Assembly (NCBI GenBank): GCA_013141055.1
Contig: JABFRS010000001.1
Location: 868,001 to 932,000 of the forward strand
Direction of reading: 5' to 3'
Source: Cyclobacteriaceae bacterium
Lineage (GTDB): Bacteria > Bacteroidota > Bacteroidia > Cytophagales > Cyclobacteriaceae
DNA length: 64,000 nucleotides
In this document: positions 37,114 to 43,364 of the stretch, piece after piece
Layout: the number at the start of each line of letters is the position of its first letter
Position numbering within the stretch: the first letter of the stretch is position 1
Translations under genes and position numbers: made by a program
Notes under the pieces: generated by a model
Databases searched by the model: none
What the model saw: the letters and a program-made list of their open reading frames with translations, nothing else
What the model was told of the DNA's origin: nothing

Positions 37114-37275
37114 GTCCATTAAAATCCCATCCCTGACCTAAAATCGGCTCAGAAACCTGTTAATTCCCAAATTGCCTTAAATCGGCGACACTCAGTACAC
37201 TAAATCCACAACTCACGTCATTCTTGTTGATTTGACTGTATCCCTGGACCACCTTTGTCTCGTCTATAGACTAAA

Positions 37276-38709
37276 ATGAATCCCATGAAAACGCTCATCG
37301 CCTTCTTCATCGCCTTTTTTGTTGCCGCCTCCGCCATGGCCCAGTCCCAAACTGAGGTTTACACCAATAATAAGTCGACTTCAAAAATCAAGATCAGCCA
37401 CTCCAACGGGGTCAGCAATTTCAATGTCGAAATCAGGGGCAAAATTGAAATGTCCGATGATGACAAGGATATCAAAAGCATGTCACCAGACGGATATCTG
37501 GAAATCACCAAGACTGTTTTCGGAAGCAGACGCTCAATCATTATAACTCCACAAGCAAACAGTCTGAAGCGCGAGTACTATGAAGGACGCACTTCTGTTC
37601 CATTTGAACCAGAAGGACGCAAGTGGTTGTCTGAGATACTTCCTGAACTTCTTAGAAGCACTACCATTGGGGCAGAAAGTCGCGTAAGCCGCTTCTATCG
37701 CCAGGGTGGATCTAAATCCGTACTCGAAGAAATTGGAAGATTGGAAAGTGATCACGTAAAGGCGCATTATGCAAACGCATTGATGGCATTAAATCTTCCT
37801 GAAAAAGATTATTCAAACATCATTTCCAAAGTTGCAGAATCTGTTGAATCCGATCATTACCTCACTGAATTCCTGAAAGGAAACATGAACAAGTTTCTTC
37901 TGAACAAAGAAGCAACCGACGCTGTGTTTGCCGCAACTCAAAAAATGGATTCTGATCATTACAGAACCGAAGTGATCAAGGAAGCATTGCGCAGCGGACC
38001 AGCTTCACCAGAAAGTATAAAGATCATCATGCAGGCTACCTCCACCATGGAGTCTGACCACTACAAAACTGAAGTCATCTCCAATCTTTTAAGACAAAAC
38101 AATCTTACTGAAGCTACTATTTCCGAAATGATCAATACTACCCGTTCTATCAACTCAGATCATTATCGCAGCGTTGTTCTTAACAAGGCACTGAACAAGC
38201 AAGGGCTTTCTTCAGTTTCTTATGTTAAAGTATTGGAATCAGTAAAAGACATCGAATCTGATCATTACAAGACTGAGGTTTTAACCAACCTACTTCGCAA
38301 TAATCTTAACAGTGAAGCTCAAATCAATCTTATAAGTGTCGCAGGAACTATTGATTCTGATCACTATATCACTGTGGTTGCCAACGAAGTCATCAAGAGA
38401 CAAACTATGTCGGATGAAGTTTTTCAAAAGCTCCTCACTACGATCGGGGGAAATGACAGCGATCATTACACTGCTTCATTTTTGCAAAACGCGCTGGAGC
38501 GTCCAAATCTTTCCAGGCAGAACATGCAGGCCATTCTGCAATCCGCCGGGAATATTGATTCAGATCATTACATCACAGAAGTGCTGACACGTGCTGCTCC
38601 AAAGATCAAGCTTATGAATGACGCTGCATTGAAAGATGCTTATCGCGCCATCGCCAAAAAGATTGATTCTGAGACTTACTACGGAAGAGCCCTGCGAGCG
38701 ATCGAATAA
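37276..38709 (+). CDS. Secreted protein with ten ~34-residue SDHY repeats
   Basis: A 477-residue protein with a signal peptide (about residues 4-22, ending AMAQ). An N-terminal beta-rich unit ('VEIRGKIEMSDDDKDIKSMS') resembles the extracytoplasmic part of some BlaR1/M56-type proteins. Residues about 150-475 form ten repeats. The serine of each Ser-Asp-His-Tyr falls at 158 (SDHV), 192, 226, 260, 294, 328, 361, 395, 429 and 465 (SETY): a near-constant 34-residue step. Each repeat fits two helices, so a solenoid is likely. No membrane anchor or enzyme motif is seen. It lies 64 bases upstream of the kinase-pseudokinase-LytTR genes on the same strand. Confidence 0.8.
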   Translation: MNPMKTLIAFFIAFFVAASAMAQSQTEVYTNNKSTSKIKISHSNGVSNFNVEIRGKIEMSDDDKDIKSMSPDGYLEITKTVFGSRRSIIITPQANSLKREYYEGRTSVPFEPEGRKWLSEILPELLRSTTIGAESRVSRFYRQGGSKSVLEEIGRLESDHVKAHYANALMALNLPEKDYSNIISKVAESVESDHYLTEFLKGNMNKFLLNKEATDAVFAATQKMDSDHYRTEVIKEALRSGPASPESIKIIMQATSTMESDHYKTEVISNLLRQNNLTEATISEMINTTRSINSDHYRSVVLNKALNKQGLSSVSYVKVLESVKDIESDHYKTEVLTNLLRNNLNSEAQINLISVAGTIDSDHYITVVANEVIKRQTMSDEVFQKLLTTIGGNDSDHYTASFLQNALERPNLSRQNMQAILQSAGNIDSDHYITEVLTRAAPKIKLMNDAALKDAYRAIAKKIDSETYYGRALRAIE

Positions 38710-38773: not shown

Positions 38774-39814
38774 ATGTTCACGGCATCCCTTTCAAGAAAA
38801 CAATCCATGCGCAAATATTTGCTGCTGCTGATCGGGTGCACAACCATCGGACTTGTTTTCTTTACATTCATTCACTACAGTGAAACAGGGGCCATCCCGA
38901 CATTCCGTTTACAAAGTGAGAAGTACATGGTGGCCATCCTCATTACCAATGCGCTGGGGTTCGTAATCTTTCAAATCGACCGGCTGCTCGACAAGATCAT
39001 TCACTGGAAAAGTAATTTTCTATTGAGATTCATCAGTGGGCTTGGCGCCAATATCCTTCTGATCATTTTGTTCTTTGCATTTATCGGGAAACACATCTTC
39101 GAGATCAATGGTGAGGCACCTATCAAGCTCACGATGCTCTTTATCATTTCAATCTTTATTTATGAGATATTCTATGGCCTGTTTTATTCTTATCGCCACT
39201 ATGCAGTAACGCAGGCAGAGCAACTCCGCTCCGAGCGGTGGCAGCTTGAACTGCAGTTTGAATCATTAAAAAGTCAGATCAGCCCGCATTACCTTTTCAA
39301 TTGTCTTAATACAGTCTCATCCTTACTCTATAAAGACACCCGGGTGGCGGAAGAATTCATCAGAAGGATGGCAGATACTTTCCGGTATGTTTTAAATCAT
39401 CAGACACAAAAGCTTGTGCCACTGAGAGAAGAGCTGGAGTTTGTCAAGTCCTACTACTTTCTGCTTCAGGTCCGTTACGAATACCATCTGCAGCTTGAGA
39501 TCAATGTCCCCCAGAATATTCTGGATTCAATGATTCCCCCCATGACACTTCAGTTACTGGTAGAGAATGCAGTGAAACATAATTCCATCAGCAAAGACCA
39601 ACCCCTGCTCGTTTATATCAGTGCAGTTGACAACACCAGCCTCATTATTTACAACACGAAGACCAGCAGCCTTAAACCTGTTACCAGCTTCCGTGTTGGG
39701 TTGGAAAATATTCACAAACGCTACAGTTTCTTTACTCATGAAAAAGTAATTGTACGCGATGACGAAAAGTTCCTGGTTCAGCTACCGGTCTTAAAAAAGA
39801 ATCTGGCGTTATGA
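38774..39814 (+). CDS. LytS/YehU-type sensor histidine kinase
   Basis: A 346-residue kinase (a Met at 38807 is an alternative start). Four N-terminal membrane helices (about 14-35, 51-70, 84-105, 118-138) lead to a His_kinase domain. The phospho-acceptor is His172 in 'SQISPHYLFNCLNTV'. The ATP-binding N-box is 'LLVENAVKHN' (Asn265) and the G-box 'GLENIHKRY'. There is no periplasmic sensor domain, so the signal is sensed in the membrane or through a partner. It overlaps the next gene by four bases (ATGA). Confidence 0.92.
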   Translation: MFTASLSRKQSMRKYLLLLIGCTTIGLVFFTFIHYSETGAIPTFRLQSEKYMVAILITNALGFVIFQIDRLLDKIIHWKSNFLLRFISGLGANILLIILFFAFIGKHIFEINGEAPIKLTMLFIISIFIYEIFYGLFYSYRHYAVTQAEQLRSERWQLELQFESLKSQISPHYLFNCLNTVSSLLYKDTRVAEEFIRRMADTFRYVLNHQTQKLVPLREELEFVKSYYFLLQVRYEYHLQLEINVPQNILDSMIPPMTLQLLVENAVKHNSISKDQPLLVYISAVDNTSLIIYNTKTSSLKPVTSFRVGLENIHKRYSFFTHEKVIVRDDEKFLVQLPVLKKNLAL

Positions 39815-40857
39815 AAAGAATATTCATTCATAATCCCTTCTTCAGGATTTTTGCTCCGCCAGTGTTCGGTATTCTGGTGTATCTCATCATTCTTTTAGTC
39901 AATAATAATGTTGAGCAGCTCGGAACTTTGTTTATCAATCAGGAGGTTTATGTCAGCATTGTGTTAAGCCTCATCGCATTTGAATCAATGCGACTGACCA
40001 TTGTACTATTGCAAAAAATCTCGTTGCCAGTCAAAAATAAGTTTGCTCTGGAAATCCTGATCACGACAGTTGTCAGCGTTGCCATGGTGCTGATTGCCAT
40101 TACTCAATATTATAAATTCGGAATTGGCTTCGACATCAGCCCAAGAGAGTTGCTTCTCTTCGGAGTCATCTATGGACTGACAGCCTTGCTTTATAATGCA
40201 CTCTATATTGGCAATCAGTATTTGCATCAGGAAAATACCCAACGGATCGAGCAAGAGCATAAGCTGCGCGAAAGCCTGGAATCAGAGTTTACATCCTTCC
40301 GCCAGGAGATCAATCCTGATCTTCTTTATGATAGCCTGGAAGAATTGATCCTTTGTCTTCATAAAAATGCAGATGCTTCTGAAGAACTGATTGATAGCCT
40401 GGCAGCATTATACCGCTATCAGTTGATCAATCGTCAAAAAGAGTTTGTAGCACTTTCTGAAGAAATTCTGGCTATCAACAATCTTCTTCGGTTGGCCAAC
40501 CAAAAACATCATCATCACATTAAATGGAGCAACAGTGTCCGGAATGCAGAGAATATTTACCTGATGCCCGGCGCGCTGATCACAACCATTGATTCGATCT
40601 TGCGGAATACTTTAATCTCTGCAGACTCTCCTTTGGTACTTTCTCTCGAACAGGAGGATGATGATTACTTTGTGCTCCATCACGATCTGAATGATAAATT
40701 ACAATTGCATCCTGAGAGCCTTCAGGCCTTTCAACGTTTACAACGCTCGTATTCAGTTTATAGTGACCGGCCATTCATTCAAATAAAAGCAGGTCGCGAA
40801 AATTATATTAAATTTCCGCTGATCACTGTAGATCATACCGTAACCGAACCTGCATGA
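39811..40857 (+). CDS. LytS-type pseudokinase
   Basis: A 348-residue paralogue of the preceding kinase with the same layout of four membrane helices and a His_kinase-like domain. The catalytic positions are lost. Where the kinase has Pro-His-Tyr-Leu-Phe-Asn, this protein has Pro-Asp-Leu-Leu-Tyr-Asp (Asp170 for His). The N-box reads 'TTIDSILRNT', and the G-box glycine is missing in 'ESLQAFQRLQRSY'. It should neither autophosphorylate nor bind ATP normally. Four-base overlaps on both sides (ATGA) couple it to kinase and regulator. A regulatory or heterodimer role is inference. Confidence 0.85.
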   Translation: MKRIFIHNPFFRIFAPPVFGILVYLIILLVNNNVEQLGTLFINQEVYVSIVLSLIAFESMRLTIVLLQKISLPVKNKFALEILITTVVSVAMVLIAITQYYKFGIGFDISPRELLLFGVIYGLTALLYNALYIGNQYLHQENTQRIEQEHKLRESLESEFTSFRQEINPDLLYDSLEELILCLHKNADASEELIDSLAALYRYQLINRQKEFVALSEEILAINNLLRLANQKHHHHIKWSNSVRNAENIYLMPGALITTIDSILRNTLISADSPLVLSLEQEDDDYFVLHHDLNDKLQLHPESLQAFQRLQRSYSVYSDRPFIQIKAGRENYIKFPLITVDHTVTEPA

Positions 40858-41645
40858 GTCTCGCTCTGAACGTCCTGATTGTTGAAGATGAAACCCCGGC
40901 GGTGGAGAAGCTGGAGCGTTATCTTCAAAAGTACAGTTCGGAAATAAAAGTAAAAGGGACCTGCGACTCAGTCACTTCAGCCGTCAGCTGGCTCACCGAA
41001 AATCAGACTTCGATCGATCTCATCTTCATGGACATTCAACTGAAGGATGGGTTAAGCTTCGAAATTTTCCAAAAGGTGACGGTACAAAAGCCTGTGATCT
41101 TTATTACTGCCTATAATGAATACGCACTTGACGCTTTCAAAGTAAACAGTATCGATTACCTGTTAAAGCCAGTAACCTTTACCGATCTCAGCGCCAGTCT
41201 GCAAAAGCTTGAAAATCTCAGAGATCAGTTGGTCATGAATGATTCAAAGCTTGAAAAGATCAAATCCCTCGCAATTGAGAGTTCCGCGAAAAGCTACAAG
41301 AACCGGTTCATGGTGAAGGTTGGAGATCACATTCGCTCAATCACAACGGATCAGGTTATTCTCTTTTTCGCCGACGGCCGGGACGTTTATCTTGTTACCC
41401 AACAACTGCGCAAGTTTATCATTGACTTCACCCTGGAATCCCTTGAAGAAGTCCTGACGCCATCGTCCTTCTATAGAGTTAACCGCACATACATTTTAAA
41501 CATTCATTTCATTCAGGACGTGGTGGTCTATTCCAACAGTCGACTGAAAATTGCCACACAACCTGTATGGGATAAGGAGATTATCGTGAGTCGGGAAAAG
41601 GTGAATGAGTTTAAGGAGTGGTTCGACGGGAATAATTCAAATTGA
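40854..41645 (+). CDS. LytTR-type response regulator
   Basis: A 263-residue two-component regulator. The receiver domain (about 5-125) has Asp60 as phosphorylation site (DLIFMDIQLKDG), acidic residues Glu11-Asp12, 'FITAYN' and the conserved Lys in 'YLLKPV'. A LytTR DNA-binding domain follows (about 150-255; 'SSFYRVNRTYILNIHFI'). It overlaps the pseudokinase gene by four bases. It probably binds paired short direct repeats upstream of target genes. Its targets could include the SDHY gene. Confidence 0.94.
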   Translation: MSLALNVLIVEDETPAVEKLERYLQKYSSEIKVKGTCDSVTSAVSWLTENQTSIDLIFMDIQLKDGLSFEIFQKVTVQKPVIFITAYNEYALDAFKVNSIDYLLKPVTFTDLSASLQKLENLRDQLVMNDSKLEKIKSLAIESSAKSYKNRFMVKVGDHIRSITTDQVILFFADGRDVYLVTQQLRKFIIDFTLESLEEVLTPSSFYRVNRTYILNIHFIQDVVVYSNSRLKIATQPVWDKEIIVSREKVNEFKEWFDGNNSN

Positions 41646-42062: not shown

Positions 42063-42593
42063 TCAAAATTTCAGTAATGCATACCCTTTCATCTGGTAAG
42101 TGGTGAGAGTCGTGAGCATGGAGGTAGCCACCTTCACTTCCGGCACCAGTTTATTACGGTCTACTTCCCTCCCAATGAGTGATTGCCCGCAAACAAATAT
42201 CTTCACTCCTGCAGCTTCCAGCTCTTTATACAGTTTGAGATTGGGATTGTCCACTTTATACTTTGAAAGATAAGAAGCATTGTCCATTGCGGTATACGTT
42301 GCTCCTCCATGAATCGCAATCACAACATTCATGTTCTTTGAAGGAACTCCCCCAATGGCATGCAGGTTCAGCATTCTCGCTACATTGTTCAATGCCCAGT
42401 TAATTGTATCCGGCTTTTCACTGGGGCGCTCCACTTCAATAACAATGTTGTAAACCATTTTCGGATCAGGCTTCTCAACAGCATAGGGAATTTCAAAAAC
42501 CCCTCCCGTACTTTTAATAACCGGATTAACGCGCGACTGGGAATATCCCGATGCAGACATCAGGCTGATTGCTATGAAAAGAATTTTTTTCAT
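42063..42593 (-). CDS. Periplasmic DsrE-family protein
   Basis: A 176-residue protein with a signal peptide (MKKILFIAISLMSASGYSQS) and a DsrE/DsrF-like domain: 'MNVVIAIHGGATYTAM', 'LYKELEAAGVKIFVCGQSL' and 'VATSMLTTLTTYQMKGYALL'. DsrE-type proteins carry or transfer sulfur, and Cys in 'IFVCGQS' is a plausible carrier. Periplasmic members are common in Bacteroidota. Placement beside a TSUP exporter and a molybdopterin-domain protein supports a sulfur-oxyanion role, which is inference. Confidence 0.85.
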   Translation of the reverse strand: MKKILFIAISLMSASGYSQSRVNPVIKSTGGVFEIPYAVEKPDPKMVYNIVIEVERPSEKPDTINWALNNVARMLNLHAIGGVPSKNMNVVIAIHGGATYTAMDNASYLSKYKVDNPNLKLYKELEAAGVKIFVCGQSLIGREVDRNKLVPEVKVATSMLTTLTTYQMKGYALLKF

Positions 42594-42608
42594 GAATACT
42601 GAGTTTTA

Positions 42609-43364
42609 TTATAAATGATCCTTTAAAATATTTATTCCTGCCACCAGAATCAATACCGCTGTAATTCTCCTGATATAGACCGGATCAAATTTCCTGACGC
42701 CTAAGCGCGATCCAATCTGTCCACCCACCAGCACCGCGAGCAGTAATGGAACAAGAAATTGCCAGCTCAATTCAGGAACACCCCTGTTGAATTGTCCTGC
42801 AAGACCTCCAATTGAATTCACCATGATGAATAAACTCGCCAATGCAGAAATTCTCCTGGGCTCTGACCATCTCAACATGTGCAGTACTGGCGAAAGAAAA
42901 ATGCCCCCTCCTATTCCAACAAGTCCGGACAACAGACCGATGCATCCCCCCAGAATAACCTTCAGAGTAGTAGATTCTTTAACTGCACTCCCTTCCTGTG
43001 TTTGTTTTTTTTCAGATTGAAACCACAAAAGAAATGGAACAATGACAAGTGTGACGCCCAGTAAAATAAAGAAAGTATGCTCTTCAATTTTCCAGAAACC
43101 TCCCAGATATGCCATTGGAATACTTGCCGATAGATAAGGCCATGCATCTTTAAAGGAAAGTTTTCCCTCATTATAGAAAATGATCAGTCCCCCTGTCACT
43201 ACAACGATATTACAGAACAACGCTGTTGAGCGAATGACCGGAAACGCGATGGCAAAGAATGGAAGCGCGAGCAACGCGAGATAACTTGATCCTCCACCAA
43301 AACCAACGGAAGAATAGATTAATGCTATAAGGAAAAATGCTGCAACAAGAAAGTAAAACTCCAT
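42609..43364 (-). CDS. TSUP-family (TauE/SafE) transporter
   Basis: A 251-residue membrane protein with about eight helices. The family signature is at the start ('IYSSVGFGGGSSYLAL') and repeated after the middle loop ('GLLSGLVGIGGGIFLSPVL'). TSUP members move sulfite, sulfoacetate or other organosulfur anions across the inner membrane. It lies 15 bases before the DsrE gene and 7 after the molybdopterin-domain gene, in one operon. Confidence 0.9.
   Translation of the reverse strand: MEFYFLVAAFFLIALIYSSVGFGGGSSYLALLALPFFAIAFPVIRSTALFCNIVVVTGGLIIFYNEGKLSFKDAWPYLSASIPMAYLGGFWKIEEHTFFILLGVTLVIVPFLLWFQSEKKQTQEGSAVKESTTLKVILGGCIGLLSGLVGIGGGIFLSPVLHMLRWSEPRRISALASLFIMVNSIGGLAGQFNRGVPELSWQFLVPLLLAVLVGGQIGSRLGVRKFDPVYIRRITAVLILVAGINILKDHL

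Follow-up and report, generated by a model that had tools for sequence, protein, structure and literature searches.

Histidine kinases are usually treated as homodimers, and in the LytS/LytTR systems (BtsS/BtsR and YpdA/YpdB of E. coli, LytSR of S. aureus) a PF06580 membrane kinase works with a receiver-LytTR regulator that has a complete phosphorylation pocket, on an operator with the LytTR direct-repeat spacing. Control of one histidine kinase by another is also known. RetS is not known to be an operon partner of GacS, nor is the gene for DivL, the pseudo-histidine kinase of Caulobacter, known to lie beside the kinase that DivL controls. In Pseudomonas, according to the sections of PMC4866733 drawn on here, RetS controls GacS by pairing with it, and blocks it as a heterodimer without using phosphorelay residues of its own. 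DivL, as described in the sections of PMC4211667 drawn on, has a histidine kinase fold with Tyr550 at the phospho-site, has no kinase or phosphatase activity, and regulates a real kinase, acting on CckA as a phospho-specific sensor of DivK~P. These two precedents, within the extent of those sections, therefore indicate that non-catalytic histidine kinases can control a kinase. In the HdrRM and BrsRM LytTR Regulatory Systems of Streptococcus mutans, a LytTR regulator has a membrane partner and is autoregulated via direct repeats mostly 12 bp apart (PMC6193735, in part).

The locus described here lies in a genome of 4.65 Mb, inside the window, as we call the whole stretch of 64,000 nucleotides that was analysed; the closest labelled loci carry the label Cyclobacteriaceae or Cytophagales. 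By the open reading frame coordinates, four genes, X, A, B and R, run head to tail on the plus strand. X (37276-38709) encodes a secreted repeat protein with a signal peptide, recognised by eye, an N-terminal beta domain and an alpha solenoid of SDHY repeats. A (38774-39814) encodes a histidine kinase of the LytS type that has the H-, N- and G-box residues (PF06580, 81.1 bits), B (39811-40857) its pseudokinase partner of 348 residues, and R (40854-41645) a response regulator with a canonical receiver and a LytTR DNA-binding domain (PF00072, 56.6 bits; PF04397, 61.2 bits). The first-pass annotation had described B as an intact frame joined to both neighbours by four-base ATGA overlaps, and this is what is found: the frame is uninterrupted from 39811 to 40857, the ATG of B at 39811 overlaps the TGA of A at 39812-39814 (overlap 39811-39814, plus strand), and the ATG of R at 40854 overlaps the TGA of B at 40855-40857 (overlap 40854-40857, plus strand). 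Expression of A and B in a fixed ratio, which that annotation drew from these overlaps, would be their expected consequence.

The layout is common to the relatives. Among 38 loci of the genus, a four-base overlap joins A and B in 27 (any overlap in 33) and B and R in 28 (any overlap in 35, with two loci unscored). The order A-B-R is found in 75 of 77 labelled loci, the exceptions being L153, whose stretch begins at B, and L144, in which B is cut; frames are split in L100, L113 and L133. The genome of the window has 12 PF06580 matches, and A and B are the sole adjoining pair. The unit is four genes rather than three, because the secreted X and the LytTR-type operator upstream of it, described below, belong to the set. 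Beyond R, on the minus strand at 42063-43364, lie DsrE-like and TauE/SafE-like genes; they are common to only five other loci of 78 and are therefore placed outside the module.

The alignment of A with B (23% identity, global) places D170 of B opposite H172 of A, D261-S262 opposite E264-N265, and A306 opposite G309, so that the losses first ascribed to B, Asp170 in place of the phosphohistidine, Asp261-Ser262 in the N-box and no G-box glycine, hold at these positions. B thus has neither the phosphoacceptor histidine nor the N-box asparagine and G-box glycine for ATP that mark an active histidine kinase. The shared topology holds as well: in A as in B, the hydropathy windows above 1.5 form four clusters, and the model of B has four helices before the DHp helices. 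B also matches PF06580, at 36.9 bits; both proteins are above the cut-off of 25.2. A has intact H-, N- and G-boxes and is apparently an active kinase; it is without a DxGxG box, like most of the paralogues compared.

Relatives of B were counted in several samples. The genus sample of 62 genomes has a B orthologue in 41 (E 5.4e-57 or better; next match 2e-24), 38 of which were aligned; G001, G010 and G054 were omitted as broken or cut, and L018, which duplicates L050, was removed. B-like matches that score well clear of the paralogues occur in 79 of 295 genomes of the family (at least 170 bits), 31 of 291 of the order (at least 200 bits) and 6 of 395 of the phylum (at least 200 bits). The 77 labelled loci came from a motif scan with the pattern NPxLLY[ED]SLE (x free) and one other; these patterns could admit a histidine at the phospho-site, relatives with another H-box would escape them, and the sequence searches of the genus, family, order and phylum genomes were independent of them. 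Part of the matches gave sets of 135 B and 132 A sequences, from which exact duplicates and sequences of fewer than 200 residues were excluded and whose rows are related to each other rather than independent. Three partial B sequences, L100, L144 and L199, were retained among the 135; L100 probably stems from the same genome as G001, and L144 from the same as G010.

Histidine is found at position 170 in none of the 38 aligned genus orthologues of B and none of the 135 wider relatives, among which no restored histidine was seen. In A, by comparison, H172, F175, N176, E264, N265, K268, H269, N270 and G309 are all kept in 132 of 132 sequences, and the 38 aligned genus copies are invariant at H172, E264, N265 and G309. 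On these alignments the loss of the histidine in B is more than chance, and the proposal that an apparently active kinase has a conserved partner without catalytic capacity stands; orthologues with intact catalytic residues, which the first-pass annotation had held would contradict it, did not turn up among the 135. Two of its details stood in part. The histidine is gone throughout, but the aspartate replacing it is the commonest residue (72 of 135) and not fixed; likewise the N-box asparagine is kept in only 6 of 135, but an acidic residue mostly remains in the box (Glu in 60, Asp in 57). The G-box column, position 306 of B, has glycine in none of the 135.

X accompanies these genes closely. 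By neighbour clustering it is present in 75 of 78 loci, and its stop lies 9-597 bp from the start of A (median 61, 10-90% range 31-126, 74 loci). In a larger set of 161 loci, many of them from the same genomes, X is found in 149; 11 of the 12 loci without it are at a contig end or have a short flank, and L247 is without B. Among the 62 genus genomes X is present in 41, A in 42 (at 230 bits or better; next match 218) and B in 41, with all three in 40 and none in 20; the module of the other two, G044 and G016, is interrupted by a contig end. In the phylum sample, X is likewise present in each of the six genomes where B scores more than 200 bits. Four of the 395 phylum genomes have an X-like protein but no B: at L263 and L264 this protein lies beside BlaI/M56-like genes and at L265 and L266 beside sigma/anti-sigma-like genes, all named by eye. 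The X-like proteins of these four loci are shorter and weaker matches than X, and the family of X may serve several regulator classes. The model of X (pLDDT 90.4) has an N-terminal helix, a beta domain and an alpha solenoid. X matched no Pfam or NCBIfam family over the cut-off, and its sequence found nothing in the PDB up to E 1. A fold search matched X to solenoids of a generic kind: 13 hits reached E 0.001 or better, none of them with a TM by query above 0.41, and the fold therefore does not tell the function of X. X may be output alone.

A 34-bp element precedes X in 96 of 99 distinct upstream regions, as scored with a matrix trained on the same regions. In the window it occupies 37186-37219 on the plus strand and consists of two direct repeats 21 bp apart, which in relatives read TACA[AG][TC]TCAnTACA twice. 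The 21-bp offset (column autocorrelation 0.85; next 0.34) corresponds to 9-bp units 12 bp apart. With the matrix trained on 39 regions, 54 of the 60 held out outscored every one of the 581 control windows and 58 exceeded the 99th percentile of these controls; the other six of the 60 fell short of the top control, L230 and L235 among them being clearly negative. The site in the window has the top score in the 64 kb (23.9; next 9.6), is weaker than most, and has a degenerate first half-site. A candidate -7 promoter box of X, CACCTTTG, at 37250-37257 on the plus strand, resembles the -7 consensus TAnnTTTG; in 27 of 97 loci a similar box lies 64 bp beyond the point where the motif starts. In LytTR systems the direct repeats are mostly 12 bp apart and upstream of the -35 region, as stated in the sections of PMC6193735 drawn on, and AgrA binds direct repeats as a dimer (PMC4227749, in part). 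The element has the arrangement expected of a LytTR operator, in which a pair of direct repeats about 12 bp apart precedes the promoter, and it is predicted to be a LytTR-type operator with LytTR geometry. R is a LytTR response regulator by its domains, a receiver with an aspartate pocket and a LytTR domain, and the pocket residues E11, D12, D60, T85 and K105 are present in 127 of 127 aligned R sequences.

The exact core pattern occurs at 41 places in 32 of the 62 genus genomes, against five for the reversed control. Of the 41, 28 are upstream of X, eight are inside reading frames and five are intergenic, before permease-like genes. At these five (L316, L317, L318, L319 and L326) the double repeat lies 50-124 bp before the gene; the two permease-like genes that were scanned, at L316 and L318, are of the MacB/FtsX type, and the genome of L326 does not have the module. 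Such permease-like genes may be a second target. The genome of the window has 52 matches to one MacB/FtsX-like permease at E 1e-30 or better; among the 30 of these loci that were scanned, the sole site scoring above 5 was at L329 (9.4, near background). A motif search of the same genome allowing up to two mismatches was dominated by chance (231 matches against 93 in the control).

The model of B, built from 32 rows (pLDDT 80.4, pTM 0.50), comprises membrane helices, two DHp helices and a CA-like domain. Its best Foldseek match in the PDB is the GanS kinase domain (E 1.5e-5, probability 1.00, TM by target 0.60), followed by other histidine kinases, RetS included, and the sequence profile of B also finds GanS (E 0.00012). 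B is thus predicted to retain the histidine kinase fold, DHp and CA. The halves of A and B are conserved in mirror image. Over 131 matched loci the mean pairwise identity of the membrane domain is higher in B (0.362) than in A (0.259), and is so in 96% of pairs, whereas B is the lower in the DHp (0.440 against 0.570) and CA domains (0.331 against 0.471); bootstraps over loci exclude zero for these differences, with domain borders set by hand. Residues conserved in at least 90% of sequences in the membrane region are R12, G20, Y24, L28, E45, E58, R61 and Y100 in B, and only W78 and K118 in A. The division suggests that sensing would fall to B and catalysis to A, and B is therefore read as a sensing side rather than a mere inhibitor. 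The conserved membrane half of B could, instead, be structural rather than sensory. Coevolution between the DHp domains of A and B gave no usable signal of contact (in-register z 3.0; 20 shuffled pairings between 0 and 2.8; Neff 66).

Taken together, X-A-B-R is probably an autoregulated envelope-signalling module in which A is the sole catalytic kinase and B is a non-catalytic sensor subunit that steers A. Judging from the residues, A would autophosphorylate on H172 and pass the phosphate to D60 of R. R would then bind the 21-bp-spaced repeats upstream of X and raise its transcription, the element being recognised by its conservation and the binding and its sign being proposed, and would probably also raise transcription of A-B-R, which follow X after a short gap. 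B would be made together with A through the overlapping genes. As it has no phosphoacceptor histidine, mostly no N-box asparagine and no G-box, B should be neither phosphorylated nor able to bind ATP in the usual way. Most likely B joins A in a hetero-oligomeric receptor, in which it would be the subunit that senses and sets the conformation. X, in the periplasm, would be a likely input or feedback element. More tentatively, the module may be a split receptor found in several Bacteroidota orders, in which B is an obligate sensor of X, A is only the enzyme arm and R closes the loop by switching X on; receptor and kinase roles that normally belong to one homodimer would then be divided between the two subunits of a heterodimer.

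Among the alternatives to a sensor subunit, a RetS-like inhibitor deserves the most attention, although we think it unlikely. B would form a dead heterodimer that blocks autophosphorylation of A until a signal frees A. The heterodimeric block of GacS by RetS, which proceeds without phosphorelay residues of RetS itself (PMC4866733, in part), offers a model for this, membrane inhibitors are a theme of the S. mutans LytTR systems in the sections of PMC6193735 drawn on, and the DHp fold is kept in B. However, the joint presence and absence of A and B and the overlap of their genes fit an obligate subunit better, and the membrane half is the best conserved part of B relative to A.

B has near-fixed residues of its own, Glu177 (134 of 135), Arg202 (133), Leu176 (132) and Asn168 (131). 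The first three lie in the first DHp helix and would suit a DivL-like protein that docks phosphorylated R via its DHp and feeds the state of R back to A, much as DivL, itself without kinase or phosphatase activity in the sections of PMC4211667 drawn on, reads DivK~P and acts on CckA. We regard this as distinctly improbable: DivL has PAS sensor domains (PMC4211667, in part), of which Pfam found none in B, and B has a conserved membrane domain of its own.

In a split bifunctional kinase, A would be the kinase and B a dedicated phosphatase of phosphorylated R. The phosphatase activity of histidine kinases does not always require the histidine, and the DHp is kept in B. The residue four positions past the phospho-site is asparagine in 132 of 132 A; of the 135 B sequences, 104 have an acidic residue there (Glu or Asp) and 15 have an amide (Gln in 13, Asn in 2). 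Because this amide is mostly replaced by an acid, a phosphatase role is less likely, and we give it little credence.

That B is still an active kinase, using Asp170 or another residue as phosphoacceptor, is very improbable. Aspartate is the commonest residue at the site, but fourteen different residues occur there: besides the 72 Asp, 19 Glu, 8 Gln, 8 Pro, 6 Asn, 4 each of Gly, Arg and Thr, 3 each of Ser and Lys, and single Leu, Val, Phe and Met. The counts for the N-box asparagine and G-box glycine given above also speak against it. A histidine is present two residues before the lost site, at 168, in 4 of 135 B, the divergent L208, L209, L245 and L246.

The sequences indicate that the catalytic loss in B was ancient, single and selected. 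By record label, which for metagenomes can err, B loci occur in Cytophagales, Flavobacteriales (L149, labelled Croceitalea) and Marinilabiliales (L153-L157), with patchy presence across the sampled genomes. Cultured carriers include Chryseolinea serpens DSM 24574 (L142) and Ohtaekwangia koreensis DSM 25262 (L123). When the cytoplasmic domains of 27 A, 27 B and 21 catalytic-looking paralogues (75 in all) were placed in one tree, B formed one group with support of 100/100 and A another with 100/99; there are several long branches within B, and the bootstrap is not fully settled. The dN/dS of B is 0.017-0.149 over the 14 least diverged genus pairs, much like that of A and R, one value for A being saturated. 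The match to B is free of stops in 38 of 41 genus copies. With the low dN/dS, this speaks against decay of the gene, which the first-pass annotation had held would undermine its reading. Stops are found in the remaining three, G001 (two TAA), G010 (TGA and TAG) and G054 (TAG), and the copies of G010 and G054 are at contig ends (L048 and L049). In G001 (L038/L100) A, B and R are all split and X is one full-length match, by assembly error or local decay; R is also split in L041/L133 and L044/L113. A search of plasmids for B returned one weak partial match only. That B is a functionless decaying duplicate of A, for which its lost catalytic residues, its cytoplasmic half, more variable than that of A, and the stops in 3 of 41 genus copies might speak, has a negligible chance of being right, since it is largely refuted by a dN/dS as low as that of A and R, by its occurrence in loci under three order labels, and by a single clade with its own motif.

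If B is the non-catalytic sensor subunit of A, a kinase/pseudokinase pair that has stayed together through long divergence, with mirrored conservation of the membrane and catalytic halves, would allow the genetic separation of sensing and catalysis. X marks a family that has no Pfam or NCBIfam name and is also found beside other kinds of transmembrane regulators, and the conserved operator together with the secreted X makes the circuit directly testable. The parts are of known kinds; their combination, in which a kinase and a pseudokinase go with a secreted repeat protein and an operator belonging to the set, is taken here as new. Among the titles and abstract openings listed from the open-access literature other than bioRxiv, none described the pairing of a LytS kinase with a pseudokinase of the same type, which is weak evidence of absence.

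The module resembles each of the known systems in part. RetS is a hybrid histidine kinase that inhibits GacS (PMC4866733, in part), whereas the pairing of A with B is here a proposal. DivL differs from B in its PAS domains and in reading DivK~P, according to the sections of PMC4211667 drawn on. The regulators of HdrRM and BrsRM are without the receiver phosphorylation aspartate and their membrane inhibitors without a kinase domain, in the sections of PMC6193735 drawn on, whereas X-A-B-R has both; with a full receiver in R and histidine kinase domains in A and B, it falls outside the LytTR Regulatory Systems of the HdrRM type. The X-like loci with BlaI/M56-like or sigma/anti-sigma-like genes also place a secreted repeat protein beside transmembrane regulators, but without B. 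The LytS/LytTR systems share with the module the membrane kinase, the regulator with its complete phosphorylation pocket and the repeat spacing of the operator. The module is unlike the usual LytS-LytTR pair, as the first-pass annotation had pointed out, in the second, dead LytS protein that stands between kinase and regulator, and also in the secreted repeat protein ahead of them.
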